DNA from: Chloranthus sessilifolius
Taxonomy: Eukaryota > Streptophyta > Magnoliopsida > Chloranthales > Chloranthaceae
Assembly: GCA_021018995.1 (NCBI GenBank)
Contig: CM037587.1
Coordinates: 89,711,251-89,775,250 of the forward strand
Length of the DNA stretch: 64,000 nt
Direction: 5' to 3'
The notes below the pieces were generated by a model that ran no database searches, was not told where the DNA came from, and saw only the letters and a program-made list of their open reading frames with translations. Position numbers and translations under genes: made by a program. The stretch's first letter is position 1; each line of letters opens with the position of its first letter. Positions 17,516-55,280 of this stretch are shown here, in pieces.

Positions 17516-19105
17516 TGTGCAACCATGGATTCTCTCGTACCCGTCGCGGCAATGCACTCACGATGGAATAAATGTAGAGTCACCACCCGGTGCTTTTGGT
17601 GACCTGAGAAACCTTTAAATCAATATTTTAAGCACCGAAGTACTAAATATGACTCTGATTTACCAATTTTTACCAAAGACTCTAGGGTTGGGGCTTCGGT
17701 TATCGATCAGGAAGGGTTTAGGCACCTGATCAACCAGCACGTAGCGGTCTCTATCTATGGCGAAAATAAAAAATAAATGGGCGGAGCTTCCCCTTGCCCG
17801 AAGGCAATACGGTCTTATCAAGCTTTGAGCCAAACTGAAATTTTGGCGGCGTAACGGCTTCAATCCTTGGACGGAGGAAACATCAAGAAGGTAGAGGAAG
17901 AGAGGGTTGAGCCAGAGCTCATGGGCCCTTGTTGCACCATGGAAGACCTTCGCTTCGACATGCTTCCGATGGCTTTAAATGGCTTAAGAGGTAGGGGAAT
18001 GGGTTCTAATGCTAGGATTCGGTAGATGGGAAGTGTAGGATGAAGCTAGGGACTAATCTTGACTAAAAAGGGGTGATCTAATGGTTGAAATGGATTGAAA
18101 GGGGTGAACTAAACATGCTGGAATTCTGGTTGAAAAATGCAATGTAAAATGGAACTTTCTCTCACTAGGGCTCTCTCTCTTAAGCTCAACTTTCCACCTT
18201 AATTTTTCAACCCTTTGGGAAGAGGGGGGGCCTCTATATTTATAGAGAAGAGGTGGGTTAGATAGTTACTTAAGAGCTAATTGGTTTAGCAATTAGGTAA
18301 TGCTCCATCTATGGTTTTCTAGGTTTTTAGGGTCCTAGGGGTTTGGGGAACCGATTTCAATGACAGATGATGGGGTGAGACCATAGGTGACTTAAGAGTT
18401 GTATATAAGCTCAAAGGGGGTGCAACCAACCTTAAGACACCCACCTCAACCAAGGGGATGGTCAAAAGGTCAAACCTGATGAATGAATTTCAAGTATTTG
18501 ATGACAGTTACTGTAGCTAAGCTGGGCGTATATATTACATACGCCCAGTTTATGTATAGTGATTTTCATGAAAACCAGGGGAGATCTGAGAAGGTGGGTG
18601 TCCGTGGTGGGCCCTACCTATGCTGGGCGTATGTATTATGTACGCCCGGCCAAATTTGGCCCAAAAATGTCAGACATATAAAATATATACGCCTAACCAA
18701 AATGTGGCCAAATTTGTTGGGCGTATCTAATACATACGCCTGAGCAAAAGTTATGATTTTATGTAAAACTTTAATCAGCCATAACTTTCGAACCATAACT
18801 CCAAATTGGGTGATCTTTGGCTTGCTGGAAAGCTGGAGAAGTCCTCCTTCCAATGGTATGTGGCTCATCCTCGGCAGTGGTCTGTGTAAAAGTTTGTAGC
18901 TCTCCTCCCATCAATTGCTCATAAGGGTTCAAGTTGAGTCTGGGATGGGATCCTAGGGTTTAGGGATGATCTCTAAGGGTTTGGGGGATGGTTCTAAAGG
19001 GTTCAGGGTGATTCCTAAAGGTTCGGAGTGCCATCGGAAGCACAAGAGTACATCTCTCTCGGAGTACAGATTGATCGGGTCTTTGGCCGAATTTGGGTGT
19101 CTACA
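17516..19105 (-). mobile_element. Solo LTR of family A inside B
   Basis: A 1590-bp LTR whose minus strand begins TGTAGACACCC and ends GGTTGCACA, like A1. No primer site or internal sequence adjoins it. The flanks ATTAG (17511-17515) and ATTGG (19106-19110) are a target duplication with one transition. A TATA box (minus strand CTATAAATATAG) is at 18233-18244. Confidence 0.92.
18523..18742. repeat. Palindrome array in the solo A LTR
   Basis: Copies start at 18523/18524, 18624, 18671 (degraded) and 18718; the last three are 47 bp apart. The arms are TGGGCGTATG and CATACGCCCA, unlike the GGCGCAAC arms of A1/A3. The first copy sits in a longer imperfect palindrome (ACTGTAGCTAAG on the left, TATGTATAGTGA on the right). 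Confidence 0.88.
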
Positions 19106-19129
19106 ATTGGACGCGGGCAATAAAATTTT

Positions 19130-19290
19130 GGTTAGAAGCTGAGGAGCGATCCTTATCGAAGACAAATTTTTTGCCTCGAACGTTGGGACAAACCATATAA
19201 TGTTGTAGAAGCATTCCCCCACGAGGCTGTGACCATCCAGGATCCCAACGACAGCCATACATTTAAGGTTACTGCCAGTGTCGTAGATAG
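19130..19290 (+). pseudogene. Second copy of the B integrase C-terminus
   Basis: It repeats the end of the B integrase: [20 protein letters not shown] and PNDSHTFKV match 16690-16780 with few changes. It lies on the far side of the small frame and the solo LTR. It may mark a template switch, or an older tandem copy collapsed into this one. Confidence 0.8.
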
Positions 19291-21454
19291 TGTGTCTATA
19301 TTTTTCCTAAGATTATTTCTTTTGATGTAATTAGTTTTTAATTTCTATTTATAGTTTTCTTTCCTTTACGTTGTAAATATTCCATGAATATATGAAGTTT
19401 TCTTTTTTACTAACTTTCTAATGTAGTTAATGTTTCTAATTTTTCTTTCATATTTTTTATTATTGATACTCTGAGAGTAAGCCGAGGGTAATTTCTCTCA
19501 AGTTTGGGGGGAACATATATATTTGGTGATAGATTTTTTTCGGTACATTTCATAGCACAATCGATAATTTGTAAGTAAATTCTTTTTTTTATCCCTTATT
19601 TTTTTTGTGCCAATGAGGGCATTGTCCAATTTAAGTTTGGGGGGATATACATCTAGTGTATATATCAGTTTAAATTTTTGTAAATAATACTTTTATTTTT
19701 GCATAACTTTTAGATTTTATAGAATTTTTGCAGAGAAATTTTTTTTTTTTTTTTCAATTTTTAGTAGTTAGTTTAGAAATATATATGATATCAGAAATTG
19801 AAATTCAAAGAGAAATTATATATATATGATATCAGAAACCTAACGCTCCATCGTAGTAGAAGTTTAACAAATAAGAAATAGAACAGTTACAATTCATTGT
19901 TTAACTCTTTGAACACTGTATGAGATTGAATGTTTGAAACAATAAGTTGATTTAAACTGCAATATTTAGACTATTGTTTCAAGTTGTATAACCAGTGAGC
20001 TTTAGAGACTAATTTTTTCTTTCCTTGAGAGAGAAACTGCTATCTATTCAATTTAAATTCTATGAACTTCTCTACTGATCTATGAAAAATCTCATGTTAC
20101 TGAGCTTAGAATCAACATATTCTATGATTATGTTAACCTGATTTTTTTGTCTAGAACTATCTGTTAGAAACATGAAAACAATAAGGCATCAATGCTAGTA
20201 AATCGTGAAGATGATCAAAGACCATCTTTTGTTAACCAAAGCCAAAAAGCCAAAATCCTAAAAAAATTTACCCTTTGAACCCATATTAGAAGCCTAAATC
20301 GAATTTCTTTATACCAAAATTTATAAGCCCTTAACCATAAGTACTACCTAAAGTTTTCAACCTTTAACCCTTACATTTTCTAAAAGTTTTAGAATGTAAA
20401 AAAAGGGAAGAAAAGGGAGTGGAAGGAGTAAAAGCAAAAACAGAAAAGGGTATAGCTAAAGAAATAAAATAAAGAATATGGGAGACGAGGTGAAAAATCG
20501 TAAAAGACGATCTGGAAAGAAAAGAAAGAAAATTCGTGAAATACGCTTCTGCAAATCAATTGTAGAAATGGGATTTCCAAAATGAGAAAAATAAGAAGAA
20601 AAATGGGAAGAAGTTATCCAAATTAATGGATAGTTGCTGATACTTACAGAAGTAGAAAAGAAGAAAAAGATAAGAGAAAGAAGAACTAAATTCCCAGAAG
20701 TATTTTGAACCCTTTTCTACCTTTCTTTGAAACCTTCTGAAACACAAGGCCCTATTACAAGCCTAATGAATGACCTTTCTGATTTACGATTTGCAAAAGT
20801 ATAAGCCTAGTAGAGATATGAATAATAGATACTATGGATTATACGGGGAATCATATGAATAAAATAGATTATCTTTTCCATGAGATTACAAATTTTTGCA
20901 ATTTTCCACTCGCTGAATTCTTCTAAAATATTACTGTGAGAACCCAAAAATTTTGATATTTTTTTAGAGTATGTCAATAGTGAGAGTTTTTAAATGAAAG
21001 TATTTTCTAAATCTGTAGTTTCGAAAAGTTTATGAAGAATAAACTATTCACTAGTACACACACACTCCACGCTTTACAAAATCGAAATTATTGAGTTTTG
21101 ATCAAGGATAACTGTTAGGATGGAAAGTGATGGTTGAAGGAATCATATCTTTTAAAAATTTATAACAACCACGTGATGACTAATCTAATTAGTGTACAAA
21201 ATTAGTTTAGATTTTTAACCTTTTATTTCTTTTTATTTTGAAATTTTTAAAAAAAATCTAAAAATGTTTGAAGTTTGTAGGTAACTTCACTGAAAACCTA
21301 TAGGAGACTACAACTCCTCAACTAGGGATCACCTAGGGGTTTTTAAAGGCTTGTTGCATCTGCTAAATGCAATCGTGCTCCCTACAAAAGTGACATTTAA
21401 ATTTTTAGGTTAGAATAAGTTATATTTCTTTGTTTGCTAGGGACTAGCAAAGCA
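19291..21454 (+). other. B 3' untranslated region
   Basis: AT-rich with no credible frame. AAGTTTGGGGGG occurs at about 19499 and 19634, as well as in the final purine tract at 21457. A purine-rich stretch (about 20390-20720) has no coding signal. Confidence 0.7.
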
Positions 21455-21456
21455 TA

Positions 21457-21468
21457 AGTTTGGGGGTG
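21457..21468 (+). other. B polypurine tract
   Basis: AAGTTTGGGGGTG abuts the 3' LTR start (TGATCAAT at 21469). This is the usual primer site for plus-strand synthesis. Confidence 0.8.
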
Positions 21469-22922
21469 TGATCAATAACAAAATATACCATTTTACCACC
21501 CTTAACTTACTGATACTCGGACTTAGTTTGCTACTAATAAGTTAATGATGTAAAGAAATTAAGAAAAATCAGTAAATAGAGTCAAAGTATTAATTTTCGT
21601 TAAAATGAACTCAAAAAGTAGTAAAAAATACAATTGGAAGAAAAAAACGAATGAGCATTGTTGCTAAAGAAGAAAAATGAGAATTTACGATTCTTTAAAT
21701 GATGATTCTTCAGGAGACGTTCAAAAAGCTAAGCGATACAAAGAAGACAATAAAGAATCGTAAATAGAAATCGTCAATAGGAATCCGTGTTAAAAGATAG
21801 AAAATCGTGATTTATGATTTTTCAAAGAAAGCTACAATAGAAGAAGGAAATTGTGATTTACGATTTTACATAAGGAAAGCCTATTGTTGTTGATGATCAT
21901 GTGAGAACTTACACCACCATGCATATAATTAGAATATCTCTTAAAGAAGAAGTCTGGTAAATCGCGGATCTGACAAGATTGATGAAGATAAACTCTTAGA
22001 AGGAATCTGCTGTTAAAAATAAGGAGAACAATCTAGAAGGACATCAACTATTAAAGCAAGGAAAGATAAAAGTAGAAGGAGAGTTATATTTAGATACTTT
22101 TATTTTAGTAGTTTCTTTTATTAGAATTAGGGGATTTGTAAACCAACCCCTTATGATCTATAAATAGGAGGGCTTAGTATAGGAAAGAAATTCCCAGCAT
22201 CAATTGACAACTGAGGTTATGTTTTCTTCTTATCCTTAGAGTAGTTTAATATAGATATCTAAGGTTCCTCGATCACAATTGACGATTGGGATTGAGAGCT
22301 GAAAGATTAGAGTAGATATCTGTAGTTTCTCAGAAGCAATTGACGACTATGACTGAGCGGTGAAAGATATATTTTTATTGCTTTCTAATTTAGATTTATT
22401 TTATTACAATTTACTGCTTTATAAACATCTTCAAATTTTAATTTAAATTGATAACTCAGGTTGAAGTTTGCAGATTAGTGTAATAATTTTTATTTTCCAT
22501 CTTTGATTTTCTGAAATTTGATTGCCTCCCAAATTTCTGATAAATTAAAGATTAGATTAAATCTATATTGAATGATGCTAGCTTTTTATTGGCGCCCAAA
22601 TGCTAGAAGACTGAGATATAGTGGAACGGTATTTTAAATTTGTAAACGTCCGATAGCTGAAGATTGGGATTGACGATCAGAATCTGAAGGAGGATTTAGG
22701 ATTTATTTTCTGTAATTTAGTTTAAGTAATCATTCTTTATTCATATTTCTCAAGTAGTTTAGGATCTTAAAAGATAAATATATGTTTTCAGAAAACTAAT
22801 ATATATATATGTACAATATAAAACATATCTTCGTGGGATATGATCCTATACTAGCTCTATAATTTCCATTGTGCGCTTGCAATAGGTTAAGACTTAATTA
22901 AATACATATAACCAGTGAATCA
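21469..22922 (+). repeat. B 3' LTR
   Basis: A 1454-bp LTR from TGATCAATAAC to AGTGAATCA, followed by the target duplication GGTGT. It is collinear with 11182-12627. Confidence 0.93.
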
Positions 22923-22927
22923 GGTGT

Positions 22928-24471
22928 CTCAGACTGAGGTCTGGTAACAAAAGTAGGATTATTATATCATTCTCTTTCTCTCTTTTTTTGTTTTGTCTAC
23001 TATTTTTAGTTACAAGGAAAGAAAAATAATGCAACAGGGAAAGCAAATAACTGAAAGAAAATTCTAAAACTAAAAAAATGCTCCAGTGTAGGAGCATGAT
23101 GGGATAGGCAATGTAGTATCTTTGGCAGTCTTCCTTGAGCAATGACCTTATTGTTTTACGCGTAACTATGAACAAGTAGGGGCCTTAATGTGACTCCTCT
23201 TCCAAAATAAAAATGCCTCAGTGTTGTGTTGCAATAGAGCTTTCTGGGTGAGTACGTAGAGTGATGAGTGTTTTCTAAAGGGCTGGTCTCGAGGAAAGTT
23301 CTCTGATGATACTTTGCCGTGTTGGGAAGAGAGCGTTTAGGTTATATCAGTCATGTACTAGATTTTACCCTTAATAGTGGCTGTCATATCTCATAGTCTT
23401 GGCTGGGTGAGATGAGTGATAGGTAGTGGATGATTGCATCAGTCATCATTCACATGTTTTCAGCTTTATTCCTGTGGATATCCTCGGAAAGGTTCTAACT
23501 CACGGTCCAAAAGTAAAAACTAAGGGTGAGAGAGGGATAAGGCTCAATGACATAGGGACAGTTTTGTACCTAACAACTTTAAAAGAGGTAAGTAACAGTC
23601 TTCTTCTTGGGTGGTATGGGGTGCCATGATTAAGCTCTCCGTCATATTTTACCACCATCAAAGTCTCACATTCTATGGTTAGCAGGGGTTTGTCCTCCTC
23701 CCACCACCTTACGACGATATCTATTAGTGTAGAGGCACCAGGGAGGCCCCCGCAGTTCGCTTATATGCTCCCGGTAGGGCTATCGAAAATGTCCTCACAA
23801 GTTGCTTATGCTTTCCTGAGCTCATTGACTTATTCACCCATCATATTGCTCTCGCTCAAGTATGCTTCCGTTATCTCTCTTTTTTTTTATCTCTCAATTT
23901 TATCTCTCTCAAAGTATGTATATATATATATTTAAAAGCAGCCTGCTAATGTAAGAATAGTGAGTTTTGATTGAGCCTAACATCTTCATTTCCTGTGCTC
24001 TAACATCTCTTCCAATGGCAGGGGAAAGGGGTGAGAATTAGTGTTACCTGTACTTTTAGAAAAGGTTAGGTGTTCTACTAGTCCTTTTGATCAAATAGCT
24101 TGAGTAAGAATGTGGGCCATGGGTTAGAAATATTCAAAGGATATTCAAGAAAATAATGACGTATGACTGGTGAATGGGTCACAATGACTACGAGGGTGGT
24201 AATTATAAGTAACTACGTCTGACTATGGGATGTGGCGATCATGGTACTAAGGGTAGTAGTTTCTGAGGTACATGACAGTCCATGGGTTAGGAAGTTCCTC
24301 CCCGTCCTGGTTTACCATCTTATATGCATTTCTAGGGTATGCGGCTATTATAACATAGGGTCCTTCCCATCTCGGTTTCAGTTTTCCTTTAGGATGAGCA
24401 TTCTTGAAAGGCATGATTTTCTTCAAGATCAACTCTCCAATTTTGAAAGTTCGCTCAAGGACCTTCTTATC
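22928..24471 (-). pseudogene. Element C: integrase C-terminus and 3' region
   Basis: On the minus strand 24471-24220 carries the end of the integrase (AYDKKVLERTFKIGELILKK, then GKLKPRWEGPYVI, the GPY/F module). A stop follows. From there to 22928 I see no frame; this is the 3' untranslated stretch facing the antisense PMD gene. It was separated from 8369-11176 by insertion of B. Confidence 0.8.
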
Positions 24472-24476
24472 GTAAG

Positions 24477-26836: not shown

Positions 26837-26841
26837 GTAAG

Positions 26842-27790: not shown

Positions 27791-28219
27791 TTAGTTCCTA
27801 ATTATCTTTCGTTCGATCTTTATAACATAAGGAGGGACATGGCGATGCTTCAGGAAGTTTCATATGTCAAAGTACCATGGATATCCATCATCAATTGGTG
27901 ATAACTTGAATCTGAAGGTTGTGGCGTCGACTTCTCTCTTTGTGGAGTTGCCTGGGGTAGGTTGCCTTTCTTTCGTGATGGATTTTGGTCTAGTTGGCAG
28001 TTTCAGTTTCACTTGCCAAGTGACTTCATGTGCTGGGGTGGTCAGCTTCTTGATGAAGAATGATTTCATACTTTGCCCAGCTGGTATCTGTATGACTAAG
28101 GCTAACATGGTGAGGGAACCCATTCTCTAGTATTGGAATATGCGTGAAAGAAATTTTTTAAAATTTTTTTATCAAGAACTAAGCTATTTCCAAATATGAC
28201 ATCGGTCTTCTTTCTTTGG
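27791..28219 (-). pseudogene. Element C linker between aRNase H and integrase
   Basis: Broken frame in the expected place. An 87-residue open stretch at 27860-28123 ends in DDGYPWYFDI, typical of this linker in Tat pol (the phrase before the zinc finger). The rest is stops. Confidence 0.6.
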
Positions 28220-37490: not shown

Positions 37491-38275
37491 ACACTAGGAC
37501 ACATCATCAAGTGATGAATGTCGTTTTCTCTTGGTTCGCTTCTGCCATCTTGATCTAATTATATCCAGAGAATCCATCCATGAATGAAAGCATCCCATGT
37601 CTACCAATTTTATCGACCAAGATGTCGATATGTGGTAACGTGAAGTCAACCTTTGGGCTCGCCTTGTTCAGGTTTCTTAAGTCGATGCACTGCGAACCTT
37701 TCGATCTTTCTTTGGTACCGGGATGATATTGGCTAGCCACTGTGGGTACTTAAAGACCATGAGAAACCAACATCGTACTGCTTGATGATTTCATCCTTTA
37801 ATTTCAACATCCACTCTGGTTGGAGACGTCTTAACTTCTGCTTGACGGGCCTAACATCAAGATATAGCGACAGCTCAAGCTCGACCAAATCGGTGTCCAA
37901 ACCGGGCATATCCTCATATGACCATACGAAGACGTCTTGGTATGACCGAAGAAAATCAATCATGCTTTTTCTTTCCTCGAGAGACAGCGACATTTTGATC
38001 TTGGTGATTATAAGAATTTCCTCGGTCCCTAGATTGACGTCCTCTATTTCTTCAATAATAGGGGTAGGGCCATGCTCAAAATCGGCGTACCGTTCGAGGA
38101 GCTCATTGGGAAGCTCCTTAGTAGGGATCTCCTTGTCCAGACTCGTGACTCCTACCTCTTCTTGTATTTCTATAGGAAAGGGGTCGATTTCACGTGGGAC
38201 AGGTTTTTCTATTAAGGCATCATTTTCTTTGATTTTCTTAGGAATTTTGACAGATAATTTTTTTTTATTTTGCAT
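37491..38275 (-). pseudogene. pol: A2 reverse transcriptase, internally deleted
   Basis: The N-terminal part is open for 180 residues (VTSLDKEIPTKELPNELLER, DVFVWSYEDMPGLDTDLVEL, VRPVKQKLRRLQPEWMLKLK). RT fingers follow (IDLRNLNKASPKVDFTLPHI, MLSFMDGFSGYN). At about 37500 the sequence jumps from AEANQEKTTFIT straight to the RNase H end of the connection (GCVLxxHDQTGRR equivalent). Compared with A3, about 580 bp are missing, including the YVDD-type catalytic motif. Confidence 0.88.
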
Positions 38276-42917: not shown

Positions 42918-43173
42918 ATATTTCCCACAGTAGGATCCCGATACACTTCAGAAGAAACAAAAGAGAACCTTTGTTCTATGTGAAGGCACGGGAATCCACG
43001 CGACAACATGATCCCTTAAAAAAATCAATAAGAGGGTGACCTCTTTTGACCGACGAGGGCGTATTGGGTGTTGTAATGGGTGGGATCTATTGGAGGAACT
43101 AAACCACTAAGCGGGGAACTCGGGATCAATGAAAAGAGGCCTCAAATTCGGGATGCCTGAAGCCATAATGGTC

Positions 43174-43384
43174 TAGCGTATGTATTACATACGCTAGGAA
43201 ATTTTTTTGGAAATTTGGCTTAGCGTATGTAATACATATGCTAGGCAACTTTTTGGAATTTTTGGCTTAGCGTATCTATTAGGTAAGCTAGGCCACTTTC
43301 TGGAATTTTTGGCTTAGCGTATCTATTAGGTATGCTAGGCAATTTCTGGAGATTTTTGGCTTAGCGCATGTAATACATAGGCTA
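43174..43384. repeat. Palindrome array in A2 leader
   Basis: Five 23-bp palindromes start at 43174, 43221, 43268, 43315 and 43362, exactly 47 bp apart. The arms are TAGCGTATGTA and TACATACGCTA. Copies three and four have changes in both arms (TATCTATTAGGTA). The spacers are 24 bp and alike (AGGCAA..TTTTGGCT). Confidence 0.93.
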
Positions 43385-44196
43385 CGCAAAAATTTATATA
43401 CTCGATATATTTGACAGCGGCAGTAGGCCCAAAATTAGTCTTTTTTTTTTGGGTTCTTAGAAGCAGTGATTCCGAGGACTAATTTTCTTTATTATCTCGG
43501 GTCCCTCCTCTCCGAACTTAAGGATACAAGGATTGATTTAGGACGACTAACGCTCTCCCCAATGGTTTTAAGCTTTGTACTTGGATCGGTCTACCACCCT
43601 ATATACGTCCGGCGTAAGCGCCTTCTCAGATACTGGATGGGGTGGTACTTTTCTAGATCCTCACTACTAGAGGCTGCCGTCGTACTAAGAACCGGGACGT
43701 TTGTATCACTGCCTAAATTTCCACCCTTTAAAATCTACCCCCACAAAAATGAATTAAGTCCCTTTAAGGTTCAATTTCAAATTCAATTTTAAAAGGGAGT
43801 TTGCTCAGTGTTCAAAAATAGGTTGTGACGATCCTGTGTCGCCTCTACGGGCCAGCATCCACAAATGGTATATATTTGTAATAAAAAAAAAAGCTCAAGT
43901 AAGCCCACCAAATGGCTAAGGTGTGCAAAAGTGCAAGTAAGCCCACCAATTGTCTAAGGCATGTAAATGACCGAAAATAAGTGAAAGTAAAGACAATGTT
44001 CAAGTAGGCCTGCCGATTGGCTAAGGCACATAAATGACTGAAAAGTAGGGGTAAGTATAAAATGACTGAATTGTAGGGGTGAGTAAAATTGATGGAATCG
44101 TTGGGTTGATTATGGAATAAAAATAATAACAAATGGTTAGAAGCAAACAAGAAAAACAAAAAAGGTCAACCTTCATGGGGAAGCTCTACTAGCTAG
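43385..44196 (-). other. A2 leader between primer site and palindrome array
   Basis: No gene. It contains a decayed copy of the 69-bp repeat (CAAGTARGCC at 43895, 43934 and 44001). The plus-strand frame at 43466-43792 is not supported by any family. Confidence 0.6.
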
Positions 44197-44214
44197 TCCT
44201 TACCAAAGTCACCA
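44197..44214 (-). other. A2 primer-binding site, decayed
   Basis: Minus strand TGGTGACTTTGGTAAGGA, versus TGGTGACTCTGCTGGGGA in A3; two bases from the LTR end. Confidence 0.75.
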
Positions 44215-44216
44215 TC

Positions 44217-45780
44217 TGTGCAACCATGGGAGTTCGCGCAAGTCCCGTTGCGACGATGCGCTTGTAAGACAAATTTAGAGTTGCCACCCAGAGCTTTTGG
44301 TATCCTGGGATACCCAAATCGATATAATGAGCACCGAAGTGCTAAAAATATGACTCTGAACCGGTCTACGCCAAAGGCTCTTGGGTAGGGGCTTCAGTTA
44401 TCGATTAGAAAGGTGTTAGGCACCCGATCAACTGACTCGTAAGCGGTCTCTACTTATGGCCAACAAAAATAAAAAAAATAAAAAAATAGAACTGCAATTC
44501 CTCCTGCCAAAAGGCATTCCAATCCTATTTATGCCCCCCATAATCACCGAAATTTCGATGGTGTAACGACGCAAATTCAAGGATAGAGGAAAAGCAAAGA
44601 AGGTAGAGCAATATAGGGGGAGTCAGAGCTCTCGGGCTCTTTGTAGCACAGCTGTGGACCTTAGCGTGGGTGCACTTCCAATGAGCTTCCAATGGCACTT
44701 CAAGGGTAGAGAATGGTTCAAACTTCTAATGCTTGGGAGCTAGGAGGTAGGAGATGGAGGCTAAGACCTAGTTCCTACAAGATCTAAGAGATTTATGATG
44801 AAAGGAATAGGTTAATGGATGAACCTAGGATCTGAAATTTGTGATGTTTTAATGCTAAAAAGGGAGGAAAGGGATCACTAAAGGTTTCTATCTCTTAGGA
44901 AAATTTTCAAGCCTTTGTAAAGGGAGGGGTGCCTCTTGATATATAGAGAAAGGGATGGTTTAAGGGAAAACTTAAGAGCTAATGAGATTAGGAATTCGGT
45001 AATCCTCAATCTAAGGTTTCCTAAGGTTTTGGGATTTTAGATAGGTGGGAATTGGGTTTCAATCGTAGATGATAGGCTAGTCTTCTAAATGGCAAAAGGG
45101 TGAAAAAGAAGGCTAGTGGAGGTGCAACAGTCCTAACAGAATCAACCTCGATGGGTGGGGTGGTCAACAAGTCAAACCCTAGTTTCGAAATCTAGCAAAA
45201 ATCCCAAAAATCACTGTTCCTAAGCCTAGCGTATGTATTACATATGCTAGTTATAGGAACAGTATTCCTGAGAACCCTGAAGGTTTAGAACCCGTTGTAG
45301 GGTCCACAGAAAGGTCAATTTTTCCTATCATATGTATTACATACGCTAGGAAAAATTCTTCCAATATTGGCTTAGCGTATGTAATACATATGCTTGGCAA
45401 AATTTTCGCATTTCTGCCCGAATTTCAAATTGCCGTAACTTATTATCTACAACTCGGATTGATGTGATTCTTAGCTCATTGGAAAGCATGGAAGATCCTC
45501 TTTCTAATGGTATATGTCTCAACTCTAGCAAAGGTCTGTGCAAAGTATGGTATTCCTCTTTTCAAAGACTGCTCGGGAGGGTTTAAAACTAGTTTGAGCG
45601 GGGTTCTATAGGTTAGGGTTGATTCCTAAGGGTCAGGGACAGGCTTCTAAGGGTTTGGACTAAGTTCTAAGGGCTTGGGTTAAGTTCTAACAATTTGAAA
45701 AGTGCTCTCAGAAGCTCGGAGTGTACGCCTTTCTCGAAGTGTAAGTTAATCGGGCCTTGGGCCAAATTTGGGTTTCTACA
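44217..45780 (-). repeat. A LTR shared by A2 and the next A copy
   Basis: A 1564-bp LTR, minus strand TGTAGAAACCC to GGTTGCACA. A TATA box (CTATATATC on the minus strand) is at 44938-44946. Palindromes lie at 45227, 45326 and 45373, the first within a 51-bp palindrome (45213-45263; arms ACTGTTCCTA and TAGGAACAGT). It is the 5' LTR of A2 (primer site at 44197), but AAAGAGGGGCATT abuts its start, as before a 3' LTR. Confidence 0.9.
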
Positions 45781-45793
45781 AATGCCCCTCTTT
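45781..45793 (-). other. Polypurine tract of an upstream A copy
   Basis: On the minus strand AAAGAGGGGCATT directly precedes the LTR start TGTAGAAACCC. A1, A3 and the solo LTR have no such tract outside their starts, which fits true insertion flanks there and an internal 3' end here. Confidence 0.65.
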
Positions 45794-46389
45794 GGTATTC
45801 GATCACTAATGATTGTGTGACAAAGAAAGAGATGTCCAAAGAGGCCCAAGGCACGCTAACGGGTCTACCATATTTAAAACGAACCTCAAACATCAGATGG
45901 TAACATGGTGAGTTTACGGAAGCCCTGCATGTCGGGAAAAACATCCGTTCCTCAAGGCTATCTGTCCCCAAGTGCTTAGCGATATTACTAGACATAACTG
46001 AGATGGTGCGAGTTGCAAAAGCCCAATGTGTTGGGAAAACCATCCACTTCTCAATATGATTTGATGAGGTGTGATGTTTGATTTTCATTCTAAATAAAAC
46101 AGTCCCGTGAGCGGGGGGTGATCGACCTATACTTTCAAGCGGGCGCAAGGCAAAGGCATGAAGATCCGTAGTTTGTGTCCAATCCTATGAGGCATTGATT
46201 GCCCCATTTGATCGGTCACGGGTGCCCCTATGTGAGGTAGGATTCGAGATTCTTGGGTGAACCCATCGATCCCAAGGTTACTTTAGCACAACTACTTGAG
46301 CGGAGCAAATATTGCTGTCGCAACGCTTTTTGAGAGTGTGTGCTCTTTTTCACACTAATCCTAGTGACATTGATCTTGTAAAAAGAACA
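45794..46389 (-). other. 3' region of the tandem A copy
   Basis: No reading frame I trust. Two related stretches occur (CCCTGCATGTCGGGAAAAAC at about 45923 and CCCAATGTGTTGGGAAAACC at about 46021), a direct repeat of about 98 bp. Confidence 0.55.
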
Positions 46390-48160
46390 ACTATGCCTAA
46401 ACATGCATCCATTAGGGGCAGATGAGCTGATTGACCCACTCCAGCCAGATGTGGACATTGTTATAGAGCCTGAGCGCGCCTTAGTGCTGGTCTTTATCTC
46501 TCTTCAATACCTTTTAGGCAAGACTATTCTTGCCAATGCCAGTGGAGGTCGCTTTGCATTGTCCCTCCTCTGTTTGATAGAGAATTGGGGGGACGTGCAT
46601 TGCTTTGATTAGGGCAGTGCTGGTTACGTGGTGCTGATGGAAAGCTTGGACAAAGCATCGGTTGGGGAAGTTACCTCGGTCCTCAGATTTTAACATGTGA
46701 TAGAGGTACCCTTCTTGATCCTGCCCCTCTTAGCTCATTACCTCTGACTTTTATCACTTGATTTGACATGTCCTTTGTTTATCCATCCTTTTCATATTTG
46801 GGGGTACCTCCATTTCCTACCTAGCTATCCTATGCTCTTTTTGGACGAGTACATTTATCCTCTTATGAGTTGTTGGCTCCTAGACTGTCATAGAGAGGCG
46901 AGGATGAAGCACCTAGAATTGGGTCTGAGGGCGCAGTTTGACCTGATGATCCCTGAGCAGGTTCGGCTCTCCTTTTTCTCTGTTAGTTGGACTTTCTAAG
47001 CTATGATCACATTAATTTACTGACGGTCCTTTTTCATTTTATGCAGATTGTTTTTGATCCGTTCATCGGCTCCCCATTTCATGACCGCGCCGCTGTTGGG
47101 CAGTCTCGATTATTTGTAGACCATCAGGTCATCTTTTTCTAAGGTGCCTGGGTCCGAGCCTACTATCTAGGGGAGAGGGTTGTTCATCAGTATCAAGACC
47201 TCTTTGCAGTGTTGTTGGATCTCCCTGAGGATGTCATGGCTCTAGAGGGTCCAGTTGAGGAGCTTACCGGGAGACTGCTCCATCACGGGATTCCAACTGA
47301 TGGCCTGTTTTAGCATGGGGGGTATTACCAGTGGTATGAGTCCCTCCCCTATCGAACTCTCCTTCCACGTTTCATTCCTAGTGCTAGTTTTTTGGCATTT
47401 TGAGGGCCATGGGGCTAGATATTTTTCTTACTCTTCCTTTGCCTGTCAATTCCTCCTTTCGATTTACTAAGATAGTGCGTTATTTGATCAATTTTTTTGA
47501 TACTCTTCCTTTTTCTTTTATCTCAGTTTGTCGAGGTAGCGGGACCTGACGTTGGTGCAGGGGTGGGCCCCTCAGAGGAGACAAATGCAGGACCTTCGAA
47601 TGCTTCTGGTGTCGGGACATCTACTGCAGGGACCTAGAGTACCTTCCGGCTAATGATGATGGATTTCTTTCTGGCTTAGGTGCTGATGTGGCTGAGTGCG
47701 CCTGTCTTTCTACCTAGGCAGCTAGAGCACCTCCCCCTGATCTTATCCCTGGGTGAGTTCTTTTCTGTTGGTAATATGCCCTCTTGGTCTTTCCATGATG
47801 CTGACCTTTATATTCTCTCTTCCTTTATAGATTTATGAGTCAGCAATCCAGCAAGCAGACTAGTATCATCACATTGCAGACCTTGGGGAGGCTGAAGTGG
47901 TGAGTAAGATGTTGTGTTGTCCTTTCTGTATTTTAGTTGGCTTCTGTTATCACACATTGATCCTTCTTATAATGCTTTCAGCATGCCCGGGAGAAGGAGT
48001 GATGTTCACTGCTCAGCTGACTGTCCTAAGCTCGCGTGGGGGAGATCCGAACGTTTCAACGGACCAAACACTAGTGGAAGAGGGACTCACAAGGACCTGG
48101 AGAATGATTGGAAACTGTCTATGCTACTTTTTTCTTTCTTATGAACATTTGAGCTTTTAA
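46390..48160 (+). pseudogene. PMD gene 1, antisense in the A copy
   Basis: Plant mobile domain gene on the plus strand, opposite to the element. Exon 46403-about 46700 has LVFISLQYLLGKTILANAS and NWGDVHCFD.GSAGYVVLME (PMD: long first helix, then W/G-rich). Exon about 46800-46960 has YIYPLMSCWLLDCHREARM. An 86-bp GT-AG intron (46961-47046) follows, then IVFDPFIGSPFHDRA and GAWVRAYYLGERVVHQYQDL, the last PMD block. This intron has the same length and position as 8669-8754 in element C's PMD gene. The 3' part (47530-48160) is less clear. Stops occur in several exons. Confidence 0.68.
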
Positions 48161-48600
48161 ACATTTTTGAATGATTTTGTAATAACAATGCAACTGATTG
48201 GCGTATTATGGATATTCCTTTGAATGGATGCCTTTTAGTTTCCTCTTTAGATTGTTATTTGGATCTGACATATTTGCCTGCAAAAATGAGAAAAAGTAGG
48301 TTAGATGGGTGTGAAAGTGTGTTTATGATATGTACCCTTCTGCATGATGGCCATGAGTTTGGCAAAAAATGGGGGAATAACCCCTGATTTATGTACTAGC
48401 TGAAATGTACAAGGTCCATGCACTTCTCCTTTACCTGGTATGAGCATGGTTCCAGTAAATGAAAAGTGTAAAACATGTTAAATGGTGAAACTAGATGCCC
48501 CTGCTTGTGACCTGAGGAATTACAAAACAGGTTAATTTTGTGCAGGTAAAATGGTCTCAGGAGATGGGACTCTTCTTCATCTTTTTTGTTCCTCTCCACT
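48161..48600. other. Spacer between PMD gene 1 and the palindrome array
   Basis: AT-rich; no gene, repeat or signal that I can support. Confidence 0.5.
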
Positions 48601-48608
48601 TTTTAGTC

Positions 48609-48772
48609 TAGCATATGTATTACATACTCTAGGCATTTCTGGGCTTTTTGTAGCTTAGCGTATGTAATACATACGCTAGGCAAACTTTCAAGATTTTCAG
48701 CCTATCGTATGTAATACATACGCTAGGCAATTTTGGGCAAAATTTGGCTTAGCGTATGTAATACATACGCTA
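48609..48772. repeat. Palindrome array upstream of PMD gene 2
   Basis: Four 23-bp palindromes start at 48609, 48656, 48703 and 48750, exactly 47 bp apart, with TAGCGTATG/CATACGCTA arms identical to the A2 type. The last ends 160 bp before the PMD2 ATG (48932). Confidence 0.93.
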
Positions 48773-48931
48773 GGTACACCTGGGTCGGCAGTGGGTCCTT
48801 TAATGCCCAAGAATGCACTTATTTCATATTATCTTGGGTTGGGTTTCGAATTTTGCTCCCATATTTTCCTTTTTCTTTTTTCGAGGGTGGGTCCATTGCC
48901 CTATATTGATGTGTGATTCTTTTTAACATCT

Positions 48932-49522
48932 TTGTATGACCATGGACCTGCTTTTCGACACCCCTATTCCTTCCTTCGGTGGTCTGGGTCCTTTATACTT
49001 CCCTCTTTGGGTGGGGGTCCTAGTTTTTTAAAGAAATGGCTCGAAGGTTTTAATGAGGGTGAGCTTGCGGGTTTGGATCAACTCGGGCTGGCTCGTCTCC
49101 CATATTTCCTAGATATTCTCCTGCTTTGGGATCTCATTCATGCAGCGGCCTCGCTTTGGGAAGTGGATACCCATGTGTTCCATTTTGGGAACCGTGAGTT
49201 AACTCCTACTCTTGAGGAGCTCTCCAACCTATCGGGTTTGAAACTACATAGAGCCCTTGCCAGGGTATTGCTAAAACCAGGTTATGAAAAAGCCGTCCAT
49301 ATGACTTTGGGCTTGAAGAAAGCCGATTATGAGAAAATACTAGTCGGTGGGCCCACCAGGTGTTTGATGAAATTCCTGAGAAAGCTTTTTGTTGATGAAA
49401 GCTTGCGAAAATTGCCAGTTAGAAACATTCAGAACATAAAAGTTTTCGCTCTCTGCCTTCTCTCAAAGATCCTTTTTTATACTGGGGGGAGAGCTTCTCC
49501 CTTGCACTTTGTGACATGTTGA
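48932..49522 (+). CDS. PMD gene 2: intact N-terminal frame
   Basis: A 196-residue uninterrupted frame with plant mobile domain features: LPYFLDILLLWDLIHAAASL (residues 56-75), WEVDTHVFHFGNRELTPTLE (76-95) and ELSNLSGLKL. The last two are the usual W.P.TH.F and E.TPTLEE blocks that open the domain. Its product is unknown; PMD proteins of this type act in the nucleus in silencing and genome maintenance, by analogy to MAIN. It runs antisense to the A copy. Similarity continues past the stop to about 50436, so the real gene was longer. Confidence 0.75.
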   Translation: MYDHGPAFRHPYSFLRWSGSFILPSLGGGPSFLKKWLEGFNEGELAGLDQLGLARLPYFLDILLLWDLIHAAASLWEVDTHVFHFGNRELTPTLEELSNLSGLKLHRALARVLLKPGYEKAVHMTLGLKKADYEKILVGGPTRCLMKFLRKLFVDESLRKLPVRNIQNIKVFALCLLSKILFYTGGRASPLHFVTC

Positions 49523-50440
49523 CAGAACTTGAAGGAGGCCGTTCTATGATGCATCTAGTTTAGGCGGAGCTTTACCATTGTCTCGATGCTTTTGCCTTGG
49601 GAAAGGTTGAGTGCCTCCAAGGATGCCCTGCTCTGCTCCAAGTTTGGCTTGGGGAGCATATAGGGCTTGTGCCTCGCTTTTATGTGGTTCGTGGGGAGGC
49701 GGTTCGCTACTTTTTGGGTCGATGCCATAAGTTGGCATAGGGGAATATGTGCGAGATGAAGCTTTGGCTGTCTAAGGTTGAGCTGGTATGGAGGCTTCCG
49801 TGGCTTGACAGGACCTTCTCGATAGTTCGATCTAAAGACTACGAGGGTATCACCCTTCTCGGATTGACTGGCAGTACCTATTAATTTCCCTCTTGGGTGT
49901 TGTGCCAATTTGGTTATACTCAGTAGGTGTCTTGTTTGGAGAGACCTCCCCTGTGCGAACTGATCTTTTCTTGGGGGTCTTCGGGTGACTTGGATAGGAT
50001 AGCCACTCTCTGGAAAACACATCAGTTGACGCACATGTGCGGCTTGGAGCAAGGGGTTCTCTTTTGACTTCTCCAAGGTATGAGGCTTGGCTGCTATTTG
50101 AGAGGCCTTCTGCCTGTCGCTTGGAGCAGGTGGAGAGCAGTGGTGTAGAGGGGCCTTGGCCGAGGAAGGAGTCGATACTTCAGACTTGGATTGAGGTACT
50201 AATAGACGAGAAATGAGTCCTACACGAGTGTTTAGAGAAACACAAGGTCAGAGAAGATGTCGCAAAAGCAAGAGCTGGTTTTGCAAAGTGTGAGGTCCTT
50301 TATCTGGAAGGACCCCTGAGTGATGCTCTTGGTGCTACTGATGCTTTTCAAAAGCGGTATAAGAGCCTTCATGGACGCTGGATGACAGATCGGGATGTTC
50401 GAGAGGTTGCCTTAGCTCCGAGATTCATGCTTTGAAGCGC
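49523..50440 (+). pseudogene. PMD gene 2: broken C-terminal half
   Basis: It continues the PMD fold across stops: YHCLDAFALGKVECLQGCPA, LLQVWLGEHIGLVPRF, KLWLSKVELVWRLPWLDRT, then FGYTQ.VSCLERPPLCEL. It corresponds to the second half of the domain, including the RQFG..Q block. A charged tail (LKRELRL) ends near 50440. The minus-strand frames here are shadows. Confidence 0.68.
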
Positions 50441-50635
50441 GAGTTGCGTCTTTGACCTAGACCTACACTTACCTTTTACATAGATCAAATCACCATAGGG
50501 AGGGGCATAAGAAACCCCTGTTAGCTATATATTTTTGGTATATATATTTTCTTAATATTTTTGTTGTTTTTTTCAATTTTTTTAAGAAAAGGGAAGCAAG
50601 GCATCACACCATTTATCTTTTTGAGATGTGGTGTA
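50441..50635. other. T-rich spacer
   Basis: Pyrimidine-rich sequence after PMD gene 2; nothing else visible. Confidence 0.4.
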
Positions 50636-50639
50636 AGCA

Positions 50640-51190
50640 CAGTATAGACATGTAAATGGAAAAAAGGAAAATCTATTATCTTTCATAAATTTTATCTTTC
50701 TTTTCTTTTGTAAATGAGAGAAACTGGGTATTACGCTGATCATCCTTTTGTGATGTGGTGCACACAGTACGGGGATGAAAATGGGATAGGGAAATTTATT
50801 ATCTTTTATAAGTGTGGTCCTCTCCTTTCCCCGTGAAGGAAAACACCGATCATCTAATCGATCATCTTAGGGTGAGGGTGTGCACAGTGTCGGCCTGATA
50901 ATGGGAAAGGGAAATTTATTATCTTTTGCAAAGTGTGGTCCTCTCCTTTCTCCATGAAGGGAGACACCGGTCATCAAAACTAATCATCTCGGGGTGGGGT
51001 GTGCACAGTGCTGGCCTGAAAATGGGAAAGGAAAATTTATTATCTTTTGCAAAGTGTGGTCCTCTCCTTTCTCCGTGAAGGGAGACACCGTTCATCAAAA
51101 TCGATCATCTAGGGGTGGGGTGTGCATAGTGTCGGTCTGAAAATGGGAAAGGAAAATTTATTATCTTTTGCAAAGTGTGGTCCTCTCCAT
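50640..51190. repeat. 121-bp tandem repeat
   Basis: About five units. TGGTCCTCTCCTTT and neighbours recur at 50815, 50936, 51057 and 51178, a period of exactly 121 bp; an older unit starts near 50690. Each unit contains CATC...TGTGCACAGT and AAATTTATTATCTTTT. Tandem repeats between pol and the 3' LTR are known in Ogre/Tat elements. Confidence 0.92.
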
Positions 51191-51194
51191 TCCT

Positions 51195-51490
51195 TTCTTT
51201 GATGCGTCAACTACTAGACGAAGTCACAGGTCTCATTTTGAGCATAGCCAAACCTGTTCATGCGGTCAGACTCGAGTGAGGTTCAACAACTTTTATCAAG
51301 GTCAGAATGTCTATCCCTTCGGGTCAAATTAATCCCTTATCCTTACCTCGGGTCATACATTTGACGGTGAGGTCCGAAGATACGCCTGACCAAGATGTAA
51401 TTTGAGCTAACAAGAGCTGCCCAAATGAATATCAGAGCTTGGAATCATAACCAATGGAGTAACCGACCCCTTCTCTTTCCTTTGAACATT
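51195..51490. other. Spacer between two repeat arrays
   Basis: No gene or signal seen. Confidence 0.5.
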
Positions 51491-51497
51491 TTTTACT

Positions 51498-51690
51498 CAC
51501 AGTGCCGAAGTAAGGTTTTCGCCATGCCTATTGTTGCCCTCTTTTTTACACGTAGCGCCCTTTTGAGTTTCCACTAAGTCCGTGGGTATACATTTTTATC
51601 CCAGGCACCTTTTTAGGTTTTCACCTGGTCTGCACAAGCTCGCTGTTACTTACCCATGGTGCCGTTTCAGGTTTTCATCACGTCCCGTTT
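51498..51690 (+). repeat. About 53-bp repeats, AGGTTTTCRCC type
   Basis: Four related lines start near 51500, 51551, 51604 and 51657. Each has GYGCC, then a spacer with TTT, AGGTTTTCACC or a variant, and GTC. They are more diverged than the 121-bp array. Confidence 0.7.
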
Positions 51691-52298
51691 ACTTTGAGCT
51701 TGTATATTTTTATTTTCTTTTCTCTCTTTTTTTGCTTTCAAGAACACAACATGGACATCGATTCCGTCATAGTCGGCTGGATGAAGTTCGTTTGTCGTCT
51801 CACAGCTTGGCTCGTGTTGACTCAATGGATACTGTGACTGCTCTTAGACCATAAAGAGAACTTTTTCTCAGGATGTATCTTGGCCATGGGTTTGAAAGGG
51901 ATAGGTTAGGAATTTTGAAGGTATTCTGGGGTAAAAAGGTTTCCTTGATTGGGTTCCAGTTGTTGTAATACACTTCTTCCTTGGGGATTTTTGACTGTAC
52001 ATACCCCACTTTTTCTTTCTATTTTTTTTATTCTTCTAGCTTTTTTCAAATATTCTCTTTTTGGGATTTTACTTTTCCAATTTTTTTAGATTTGATGGTA
52101 ACTTTTTTTCTCCTTTTTTGTTTGGCATATACACTTTTCCCATCATCTTTTCTAGGGAGGGGTTGAAAGAAAGGCCAATGACATAAAGGGTGTAGCAAGG
52201 GTATAAGTGTTCAAGACCTTTTTTTTGGCTACTTGGCTTTAAAATAATGGCCTCTTTTATAGGGTCCTTAAGTAGTCACGTACCCATCTTATCAATAC
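51691..52298. other. A-copy sequence up to the A3 insertion
   Basis: T-rich stretches and no credible frame. It ends with ATCAATAC at the start of the A3 LTR; AATAC (52294-52298) is the expected half of the A3 target duplication, the other half lying outside the window. Confidence 0.5.
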
Positions 52299-52721
52299 TG
52301 TGGACACCCAAAGTCGGCCCAAGGCCTGATCAGAATACATTTCGAGAGAAGCGCATCTCTGAGTTATTGATGGCATGCATGAGACCCTTAGGAACCTTAC
52401 CAAAACCTTAGGATCCATCCCTAACCCTTAGGAATTACCCTAGATCCCTTGAAGAACCTTCCCGAACCCTTAGAAACCAATCCCTATCCTTAGAAGCCAT
52501 TTCGAGCCTAACCCTAGCTTTCCCGAGTAGTGGATGAGGTGTGGTGCACCAGGGCTACTTGCAGCCTTCTACTATGACCTAATCTTATACCATTGAAAAG
52601 TAGAAGTCATCAACTTTCCAATAGTCTAAGAATCACCCCAATCGGAGCTATGTATGCAAATATATAGTGGTCCAAACTTGAAGGGCAAAGAGGTAATTTC
52701 ATGTGGCCCCCTTAGGGATTT

Positions 52722-52941
52722 GGTGCAACTAATAGTTGCGCCAGTTATATTTGGAGCTTGGCACAACTATTAGTTGCGCCAAGCCATCATCTCCCAAGAA
52801 ATGGTCTGGCGCAACTAATAGTTGCGCCAGCATTAAGGTGGGTCCCCCCACGGGCAGCCAAATTCCAGGCCACTGTGCAACACTATTTTACTGTGCATAT
52901 GCTTGGCGCAACTAATAGTTGCTCCAGGCATATGAACAGTA
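52722..52941. repeat. Palindromes in the A3 LTR
   Basis: 21-bp copies start at 52722, 52760, 52808 and 52905 with GGCGCAACTA arms. The last is the centre of a 53-bp palindrome (52889-52941; arms TACTGTGCATATGC and GCATATGAACAGTA). Confidence 0.92.
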
Positions 52942-53167
52942 ACCGCTGGTTTTACCCTAAAAATCATGATTGAGGTTTGACATGTTGACCACCTGGGTCT
53001 TTGGGGTGTGTTTTGACAATACTGTTGCACCATTTAAAAGCTTATTTGCAACCCCTAAGTGCCTTAAACCCTTTACCCTATAATTGACCATTAGAGCTTC
53101 GTTTCACAAATCTCCAAGCTCTCAAAACCCAATTAGCAGCTAAACACTCTCCTAATCCACCCTTTTC

Positions 53168-53177
53168 CTATAAATAG
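53168..53177 (+). promoter_or_regulatory. A3 LTR TATA box
   Basis: CTATAAATAG followed by a C-rich stretch. The same box lies at the equivalent place in A1 (5634-5643), the solo LTR (18233-18244) and A2 (44938-44946). Transcription would start about 30 bp downstream. Confidence 0.8.
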
Positions 53178-53903
53178 AGCCCCCCTCCCCTTAGTTTAAG
53201 GATTGAGAATTTTGGCCTAAGAGAGAAAGAGCTTAAGTGACAAGATCTTTCTCACTTTGGTGCATATTTCCCATATAAAAATCAGAATTGAAAACCTTCT
53301 TCCCACCCTTGCCTTTAATCAAAAGCCTCTAGGTTAGATGTGTGTTCTACCCTAGCACCCTCCTTCTATCTCTTAGCTATCACCCTTAAGAGTTAGAACC
53401 CATTCTCAAGTCATTCAAGCCTCCAAGAGCTCATCAAAAAGCAAGCCACGCAAGGCTCCCCTACGGTGCTACAAGGGCCCGAGAGCTCTGGCTCTCGCCT
53501 TTCTTCTCCTATCTCTTTTAGTCTTCCTCCATCCTTGTATTTGTGCTGTTACGCCGCCGACTTTTTGATAGAGACGGAGGGGCACAAATAGGATTTTAAG
53601 GCCCTTTGGGCAAGAGGAAGGCTCCTTTATTTCTTTCATGATATTTGTGTTTTGGCCATAAGTAGAGACCGCATTAAGCAGGGTTGATTAGGTGCCTAAC
53701 ACCTTTCCAATCGATAACCGAAGCCCCTACCCAAGAACCTATGGTGTGGACCGGAATCAGAGTCATATTTTTAGCACTTCTGTGCTCATAAAAATGAACT
53801 AGGTTTCCCGGGACACCAAAAGCTCCGGGTGGCGACTCTATATTTTTCTATTAGAGAGCTCATCGCCGCGATGGGATCGTCACAAATCCCACGGTTGCAC
53901 AGA

Positions 53904-53921
53904 TGGTGACTCTGCTGGGGA
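53904..53921 (+). other. A3 primer-binding site
   Basis: TGGTGACTCTGCTGGGGA, two bases after the LTR end. It fits the 3' end of plant Arg(ACG) tRNA from memory, with one or two mismatches. Confidence 0.85.
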
Positions 53922-55280
53922 TAGCTTTTAGAGCTTCTCCTTGAAATTTGGCCATTTCTTTTTATTTTACTAACCATTTTTTCCATTTTTTTTACTATTT
54001 TTTTTATTTTCTCACCCCTATTTTTCCGTCATTTACATGCCTTAGCCAATCGGCTAGCTTACTTGCGCATAGTCTTTAATTTCCTTTACATTTCTGTCAT
54101 TTTTGGTGCCTTAGCCGATTGGCAGTCCTACTTGTGCATTATAATTTAATTTCTTTACGTTTCTATCATTTAAAGTGCCTTAGCTGATTGGTGTGCCTAC
54201 TTGTACGAACATATTCCGACAGTGGACTCCAGCCCGTAGTGGCAGCATGGGGTCATCACCCCCGACTTTTAGACTAAAGAAAACTTTCATAAAAAAAGAA
54301 TGTTTTGAGAAAAAAAAAGTTAAAATTGAATCAAGAATAGGGAGCTTAATTAACTTATTTTTACGGGATAGATTTTCAAAGGGTTGGGTTTAGGCACACA
54401 TACAACCACCCGGGAATTAGTATGGCGGCAGCCCCTAGTGGTGGTGATCCAGAAAAGTTCCAGCCCACCTAGTATCTGAGAAGGCGCTTGCACCATAGGT
54501 ATATCGGGTGGGTTCTCATTCCCAAAGCTTAAAACCCTCGGGGAGCGCGCTAGCGAGTTATATCAGACTCAAACCTTTAGCTGTGGTAAGGAGAGAATCG
54601 ACCATATAAAAACACAGTTAGTTCTCGTAAGCCCAGCTTCCACAAAAAACTAAAAAAATAGTCCCATTTTCAGGCTGTTGTTCCTTGCTGTCAAGAGTTA
54701 TGGAGCTCCATTTTCGCTTGGCACAAGTATTAGTTGCGCCAGTACAAAAATCACGGAATTATAACTGGCGCAACTAATAGTTGCGCCAACTTTAAATCTG
54801 CCCAATTTTACCTTGGTGCAACTAATAGTTGTGCCAGTGTAAAAAAGAAGCTTGTCTGACTTGGCGCATGTATTAGTTGCGCCAATCTTGCTTGGACAGC
54901 AGCAGCTCGAAATCTGAGGCTTTCTCACCTCCCGAGTGCCCCGATTAGTGTGCTCAGCGCCTTCGTTCAGGCCCCGTCATCTCCAACAACCAATACGCCC
55001 TCGCCGATCAAAAGAAGGTGACTTCTTCTTTACTCATTCCGGGGGATCGGGTTATTTGCCTCAATTTTTGTGCCTTTAATAGATCAAAGGTCTTCCTTTG
55101 ATTCTTCTGAAGCGTGTCGAAATCGTCGCCATGAGTCTCGAGTTAAGGTACGAAAGCCACCCGAGAAAGGAATTCCAAGGCCTTGGAACCTTTGTTTTCA
55201 ATAAAAAATTCTTTCCAAAAAAAAAAATTAATTAAAAGTCAAAAACCTAAAAATAGAATCTTTGTGTTGCTAGCACAACA
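53922..55280 (+). other. A3 leader
   Basis: It holds the 69-bp repeat (GCCTTAGCYRATYGG at 54039, 54108 and 54177) and a palindrome array (54720-54883). Near 54990-55050 a conserved line (CAATACGCCCTCGCCGATCAAAAGAAGG) precedes gag, also found at about 3830 in A1 and 43060 in A2. Confidence 0.75.
54720..54883. repeat. Palindrome array in A3 leader
   Basis: Four 21-bp palindromes start at 54720, 54767, 54815 and 54863, spaced 47, 48 and 48 bp, with GGCGCAACTA/TAGTTGCGCC arms, the A1 type. Confidence 0.93.

Follow-up and report, generated by a model that had tools for sequence, protein, structure and literature searches.

Described systems and the palindrome carrier

Family-specific tandem motifs in the noncoding regions of transposable elements are described for VANDAL21 and VANDAL6, in which they are bound by VANC anti-silencing proteins (PMC5735166; PMC10398659; these and the papers below are cited from their available portions). 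Among long terminal repeat (LTR) retrotransposons, 57% of Ogre elements are reported to contain an extra open reading frame (ORF) with a plant mobile domain (PMD) (PMC6317226; PMC9289625), and Retand elements carry between pol and the 3' LTR, a region in which tandem arrays are frequent, an antisense TRP28 gene with a proposed regulatory and DNA-binding role (PMC11963269, which also cites an antisense nuclear protein of Grande). In hosts, the PMD proteins MAIN and MAIL1 are tied to the 'DOWN' promoter motif and to transposon silencing, direct binding not being demonstrated in the available text (PMC7156037). Here, we describe arrays of short palindromes in a Ty3/gypsy element of Chloranthus sessilifolius, seen in a stretch of 64,000 nucleotides (GCA_021018995.1, contig CM037587.1, forward-strand positions 89,711,251 to 89,775,250; hereafter the window) and in further genomic copies, whose half-sites differ between families and change as whole-array sets.

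Judged by its coding order, the palindrome carrier is a Tat/Ogre-type Ty3/gypsy LTR retrotransposon. In the window copy A1, an archaeal-type RNase H sits between RNase H and integrase, a layout common to Ogre and Retand, and the order RNase H, second RNase H, integrase is that of the angiosperm Tat clades Ogre and Retand (PMC6317226, available portions). The extra PMD ORF expected of Ogre/Tat elements was found as an antisense gene, gene 1 (PF10536, E 2.2e-16 in the genomic locus L021). Window LTRs measure ~1.5-1.6 kb, start with TGTAGACACCC or a near match and end with TTGCACA; a primer-binding-site (PBS)-like GATGGTGACTCTGCTGGGG follows the LTR in A1 and, altered, in A3, the PBS of A2 being imperfect. 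One genomic copy, C1:2,721,182-2,737,968, has the identical 5 bp CCATT at both flanks.

The likeness to VANDAL/VANC lies in short element-specific motifs that stand in tandem in noncoding regions, differ between families and change in concert, and in an element-encoded extra protein; the VANDAL analogy of an initial annotation of this DNA is strengthened by the presence of family-specific arrays in more than one noncoding region of the element. However, VANDALs are Mutator-like DNA transposons, whereas this element has LTRs, a PBS-like site, RNase H domains and, in one copy, the CCATT duplication. The VANC motifs YAGTATTAY and AGTTGTCC/AGTTGTAC are not termed palindromes in the available text of PMC5735166, and motif resemblance was rejected as being at chance level against shuffled motifs (0.47 for VANC21; 0.16 for the CC type of VANC6). 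VANC carries DUF1985; one weak DUF1985 match was found here (E 0.076), far below the cut-off. By analogy, the system is one that works like VANDAL/VANC without being a member of it.

With Ogre/Tat, the element shares a second RNase H, placed after the first and before integrase, and the PMD extra ORF; it differs in that operator arrays are not mentioned in the available Ogre accounts (PMC6317226; PMC9289625), and in that its PMD-type genes are two in number, run antisense and are both preceded by palindrome arrays. It resembles Retand in the antisense gene between pol and the 3' LTR, but the protein domain differs (Transposase_28 had no match among the 40 ORFs scanned, a subset of all ORFs), and the available text of PMC11963269 does not describe Retand tandem repeats as shared promoter sites. 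As with MAIN/MAIL1, a PMD is linked to a promoter DNA motif, although MAIN and MAIL1 are host genes. In the open-access literature we found no account of these arrays or of their motif letters, nor of the combination of PMD, antisense gene, promoter, DNA binding and retrotransposon.

Family-specific palindromes and the unit of change

The window contains 29 palindromic sites in arrays, within which neighbouring centres lie mostly 47-48 bp apart; matches at 4313 and 14264 were discarded as chance. The earlier statement that all family A palindromes fit GCGYANNTAWTANNTRCGC is only loosely true, since 10 of the 29 are exact and the others carry 1-3 mismatches. Genome-wide (2.17 Gb), exact GCGYANNTAWTANNTRCGC occurs at 37,714 places, against 0 for the reversed-pattern control and 15.9 expected from base composition, and the two other proposed arm types proved real, half-site TAGCGTATGTAWTA occurring at 1095+991 places (control 31+24) and GGGCGTATGTAWTA at 2368+2453 (control 2+5). 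A caller scoring half-sites separately returned 180 sites across 266,980 bases, with 1 in the reversed sequence; a laxer caller, applied with L001-L004 and L065-L084 left out, gave 374 sites, grouped in 128 arrays, against 18 for the reversed control.

At the level of arrays, four half-site types are well sampled, or six including those seen in one or two arrays. Loci L005-L024 are the first listed motif places and come from one chromosome; L025-L044 and L045-L064 were picked by half-site, so that their array types do not count as independent evidence, and descent relates the copies, so that P values overstate independence. The idea of one fixed core did not survive: the arrays of a second antisense gene, gene 2, add the half-site types TAGCGTGTG/A, TGGCGTGTG and TGGCGCATG, and their GCGTGTG/A half-sites violate the A of GCGYA. 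The TAGCGTGTG/A half-sites lose this A in both arms (copies L110, L111, L114, L115, L118, L119, L121, L122 and L124), and the core is therefore wider than the pattern first given.

The element runs from LTR start through U3 (unique 3') array, TATA box and PBS to the leader array. In the sense direction, ~310-490 bp separate the LTR start from the first U3 palindrome, and in most copies with a CTATAAATAG box located, the last U3 palindrome precedes that box by ~300 bp (262 bp in window A1); the leader array stands ~0.8 kb past the PBS, before gag. Two more array sites, III and IV, lie between integrase and the 3' LTR, and both lead to antisense genes. The window features are:

3959..4071, minus strand: A3 leader array, 3 palindromes with GGCGCAAC arms
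4917..6441, minus strand: A3 LTR; PBS-like site at 4898-4916
5928..6044, minus strand: A3 U3 array, 2 palindromes
17516..19105, minus strand: solo LTR; flanks ATTAG / ATTGG, a 4/5 near-match to a 5-bp target duplication
18526..18739, minus strand: solo-LTR U3 array, 4 palindromes with GGGCGTATG/A arms; the 18674 site is weak
43176..43382, minus strand: A2 leader array, 5 palindromes in 47-bp steps
44217..45780, minus strand: A2 LTR; imperfect PBS at 44198-44216
45229..45393, minus strand: A2 U3 array, 3 palindromes with TAGCGTATG arms
46418..46708, plus strand: remnant of antisense gene 1 (PMD); tblastn, 47% identity over 97 aa to the L021 PMD, E 2.9e-18
48611..48770, plus strand: array IV (the '48.6-kb array'), immediately before antisense gene 2; its flanks have homologues in L009, L019, L034, L040 and L044
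48917..49522, plus strand: fragment of antisense gene 2, PMD/DUF7745-like (Pfam PMD E 3.7e-5, DUF7745 E 0.011, both below the curated cut-off)
52299..53901, plus strand: A1 LTR, start TGTGGACACCC, end TTGCACA; TATA box at 53168, PBS-like site at 53902-53920
52723..52924, plus strand: A1 U3 array, 4 palindromes with GGCGCAAC arms
54721..54882, plus strand: A1 leader array, 4 palindromes, between the PBS, ~0.8 kb to its 5' side, and gag
61758..63450, plus strand: A1 coding order (Pfam), reverse transcriptase (RT) RNase H 61758-62147, second RNase H (RVT_3) 62393-62815, integrase 63055-63450 (integrase matches weak, E 0.02)

In aligned U3 regions, the palindromes occupy the same places, with a geometry preserved across families, and their arms differ from family to family: families differ by symmetric arms, and at orthologous U3 sites the arms were altered in place. 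Once the palindromes are excised, a tree built on 28 U3 flanks requires two arm-type changes, the minimum, and places A2 (5 rows) and the solo type (7 rows) each in one clade, with support of 100/99. The proposal that arms changed together with symmetry kept stands for the majority arms of A1, strictly symmetric at four U3 slots (n=17, 17, 12 and 7), and of A2, strictly symmetric at three (n=8 each), though not at a fourth (n=3). It fails for the solo-type U3, with conserved asymmetry at position 9 in two of four slots and at position 1 in a third; for the group L018/L019/L022 (n=3), asymmetric in both scored slots, whose members combine AAC, ATG and other half-sites and so form intermediates without strict symmetry; and for the A1 and A2 leader arrays, which contain recurrent asymmetric sites. 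Outer arms are longer in the U3 palindrome nearest the TATA box, e.g., CATATGC...GCATATG in A1 and TTCCTA...TAGGAA in A2 within an ACTGT...ACAGT frame; they differ by family and still pair (window 45218-45270 and 52880-52960; U3 of L006 and L013).

The covarying unit is the whole half-site set of an array, not, as had been supposed, the two arms of one palindrome. Within copies, one-sided changes prevail over two-sided ones: the counts of position-cells altered in one arm only, in both arms identically and in both arms differently are 161, 20 and 4 in A1 (105 sites), 75, 14 and 3 in A2 (72 sites) and 106, 28 and 2 in the solo type. Such one-sided changes, as well as asymmetric intermediates, had been named beforehand as observations that would refute the proposal, and both were found; yet C>T or G>A makes up 100 of the 192 oriented one-sided changes, about half, as expected for decay after insertion, and the majorities at the well-sampled A1 and A2 U3 slots are symmetric. 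Among the 374 sites, arms match at positions 2, 6, 7 and 8 in 313, 333, 343 and 321 cases, against 185, 189, 280 and 184 under random pairing and 313.0, 332.6, 341.7 and 321.8 under pairing within arrays. Shuffling arms within an element or array restores the observed symmetry everywhere except at the innermost position. There, at position 9, 275 of the 374 match against 258.1 expected within arrays (P 0.008), an excess that stems partly from sites shared by descent and is absent from the solo type alone (27 vs 29.3). Pairwise arm compensation is thus rejected save for this modest excess, array-level sharing explaining the symmetry; a pooled test ungrouped by element had resembled compensation and was misleading. 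Furthermore, 11 of 20 sampled loci carry arrays at two or more places; each of the 11 is single-class, as are window A1, A2 and A3; window A2 is the informative case, because A1 is the common class.

Elsewhere in the window, antisense gene 2, array IV, the gene-1 remnant, the A2 LTR and the A2 leader are directly consecutive (43000-49550), which suggests a composite of two A2 elements fused via one LTR. An inverted repeat TTTGG..ATCATTAGTGATC..CCAAA directly precedes the purine-rich tract and LTR start (L006:4315-4375; window 45781-45830), and 24-bp tandem repeats (GGGCCATGGGCCC...) occur in the proline-rich part upstream of gag at 2195-2577 (A3) and 56218-56553 (A1).

Antisense genes and the candidate regulator

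Both antisense genes are candidates for a partner of these sites, gene 1 matching the PMD and gene 2 being weaker PMD/DUF7745-like. A protein-database search for PMD homologues found none. In the gene-1 lineage, palindromes lie 1.3-2.0 kb upstream in 17 of 20 copies (at least two in 15; reversed control 1), three of them at 47-49-bp steps in 14. Upstream of gene 2, palindromes lie at 95-301 bp in 20 of 20 copies (at least two in 19; reversed control 0). The gene-1 sample (L085-L104) comprises 20 among the 121 matches listed, mostly from the top of the list and favouring starts at query residue 1; the gene-2 sample (L105-L124) comprises 20 among the 150 matches listed, with L105 a close copy of the window gene 2. 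The upstream stretches inspected were 1.15-2.0 kb (L085-L104) and 60-470 bp (L105-L124), and 1.1-2.2 kb for a PMD control set (L065-L084).

TATA-like words, picked after viewing the sequences and in copies that share descent, stand at a nearly constant spacing from the palindromes. Among 18 gene-1 copies that have a site, 16 show such a word beginning 24-29 bp beyond the last centre (random positions 5.4%); among 18 measurable gene-2 copies, 17 show one beginning 36-38 bp beyond it (random positions 14.2%). An earlier gene-1 measurement, with L095 left out, gave 16 of 16, and a laxer caller adds a site in copy L086 that lacks a TATA-like box. Upstream of both genes, many copies show a TTTAAA-like box with GCCCGA only a few bases behind it (gene 1, L021:6000-6560 and L085-L104; gene 2, L105-L124 and window 48750-48850), a signature that in gene 1 extends into an inverted repeat, CAGCCCGAACTCGGGCTG. 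In L019 (~6745-6975), array III is interrupted by an insertion that consists of CGATACGTATCG-type palindromes and may be a small transposon.

Altogether, we consider it somewhat probable that the palindromes are double-stranded DNA operators of a dimeric, sequence-specific regulator, most likely an antisense PMD-type protein. A symmetric unit changing with its partner, as the initial annotation proposed, is still the best reading, in its homodimer-on-DNA form rather than as an RNA hairpin, and for the element's own PMD product, which it had named as a candidate, the support is positional, coming from the upstream sites in the gene-1 and gene-2 copies and the TATA-like spacing. A homodimer would read two half-site copies around TAWTA, and one regulator could serve several putative promoters, through the arrays in U3, in the leader before gag and upstream of the two antisense genes; given so many putative promoters of one element, an element-encoded regulator would be the most economical partner. 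The PMD-type genes are candidates because they are the only extra genes recognised in the element, and the arrays at their own promoters suggest feedback, such that one of the two proteins would govern its own gene and the genomic promoter jointly, as activator, anti-silencing factor or autorepressor. Should the specificity of the regulator change, the family would swap its half-site everywhere, in place. We infer promoter activity, binding by a protein dimer, the PMD-type partner and the sign of the effect.

Several results weigh against this reading. The antisense ORFs read are broken or partial; a search of solved structures gave nothing better than one hit at E 0.74; and the structure model of the PMD protein is unusable, with a mean predicted local distance difference test (pLDDT) score of 35. 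The copy spanning L005/L006, which has both LTRs and the 5-bp duplication, shows no antisense gene in tblastn and lacks palindromes in the region from integrase to the 3' LTR, but its U3 and leader arrays are retained, so that its regulator would need to be supplied in trans or by the host. Nor does a PMD alone imply sites: 17 PMD matches presumed to lie in other elements (ranks 5-21 of the 128 PF10536 matches listed, rank 4 skipped) have no array in the 1.1-2.2 kb upstream, and PMD genes in general were rejected as array carriers for these 17 in the stretch searched. In addition, one-sided transitions in array III alone run 26:13 towards keeping wobble pairs in the element sense (L095 left out), and the array-level test cannot separate selection by a partner from copying.

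Host factors, RNA hairpins and copying

The strongest alternative, though still an unlikely one, is that the palindromes are operators of a host transcription or silencing factor, exploited or suffered by the element, with families using other host paralogues or having drifted. The L005/L006 copy suits such a factor, as do the same sites common to U3 and two different genes and the promoter motif tied to the host PMD proteins MAIN and MAIL1 (PMC7156037, the available text of which does not examine direct recognition). However, four, or up to six, half-site types exceed what one factor of fixed specificity would give, and three full-length PMD matches, presumed host genes, have no array in the 1.1-2.2 kb upstream; the control set yielded isolated low-scoring sites in L068 and in the host control L084, against 4 in its reversed control. 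These three matches (C2:182456779, C6:2320605 and C2:182470824) are free of stops and probably host genes, whereas most other listed matches contain stops.

Far less probable are hairpins in the genomic RNA, with a stem around a UAWUA loop, acting in packaging, dimerisation or stability. Genomic RNA would include all arrays, the longer outer arms of the TATA-proximal U3 palindrome also pair in several families, and the wobble bias of array III points the same way. Overall, however, one-sided transitions in sense RNA (145 of the 180 sites could be oriented) keep wobble in 51 cases and break it in 63 (P 0.30), solo-type position 9 gives 16 vs 15, with 24 symmetric, and the arms of a palindrome match no better than other arms of its array, except at position 9. 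Among the 29 window sites, the sense strand folds better in 9 and the antisense in 20, including all five A2 leader sites (e.g., -4.9 for sense vs -24.4 kcal/mol for antisense). Because G-U preference is absent overall, strand folding runs contrary, and the sites stand beside TATA-like boxes, arrays III and IV lying just 5' of those of the antisense genes, the hairpin is not favoured, and the data favour recognition as double-stranded DNA, presumably by a homodimer.

Concerted change through copying, with no partner at all (by unequal exchange, by RT template switching from one array to another or by hairpin-templated correction), is similarly improbable: the A2 leader and A2 array IV, with a mean spacer identity of 0.600 against 0.407 for shuffled spacers, may share copied units, and the within-palindrome excess at the innermost position would fit, but the A2 U3 and A2 leader spacers (0.496) are no closer than those of A1 and A2 U3 (0.493), while those of A2 and solo U3 reach 0.564. 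For U3 this argues against simple copying, although A1 U3 vs A2 leader (0.512) shows that the comparison resolves little. Copying also leaves both the constant U3 geometry across families and the placement of arrays beside TATA-like boxes unexplained.

Returning to an element-encoded dimeric regulator, a bolder form of that reading is advanced tentatively, as possible rather than probable: the PMD-type proteins would be dimeric, sequence-specific DNA-binding regulators, in this element part of a self-matched operator system that takes in the sense promoter and the two antisense ones, half-site switching would record repeated changes of specificity, and the whole would form the LTR-retrotransposon counterpart of VANDAL/VANC.

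Few extra domains are commoner than PMD in plant Ty3/gypsy elements (PMC9289625, available portions), and host PMD proteins influence silencing (PMC7156037, likewise). If the family-specific palindromes are PMD targets, the DNA specificity of the PMD would become readable from genomes and directly testable, and the many natural copies with at least four half-site types could reveal the residues that set specificity. In that case, control systems specific to the element itself, as in VANDALs, may also exist in LTR retrotransposons.

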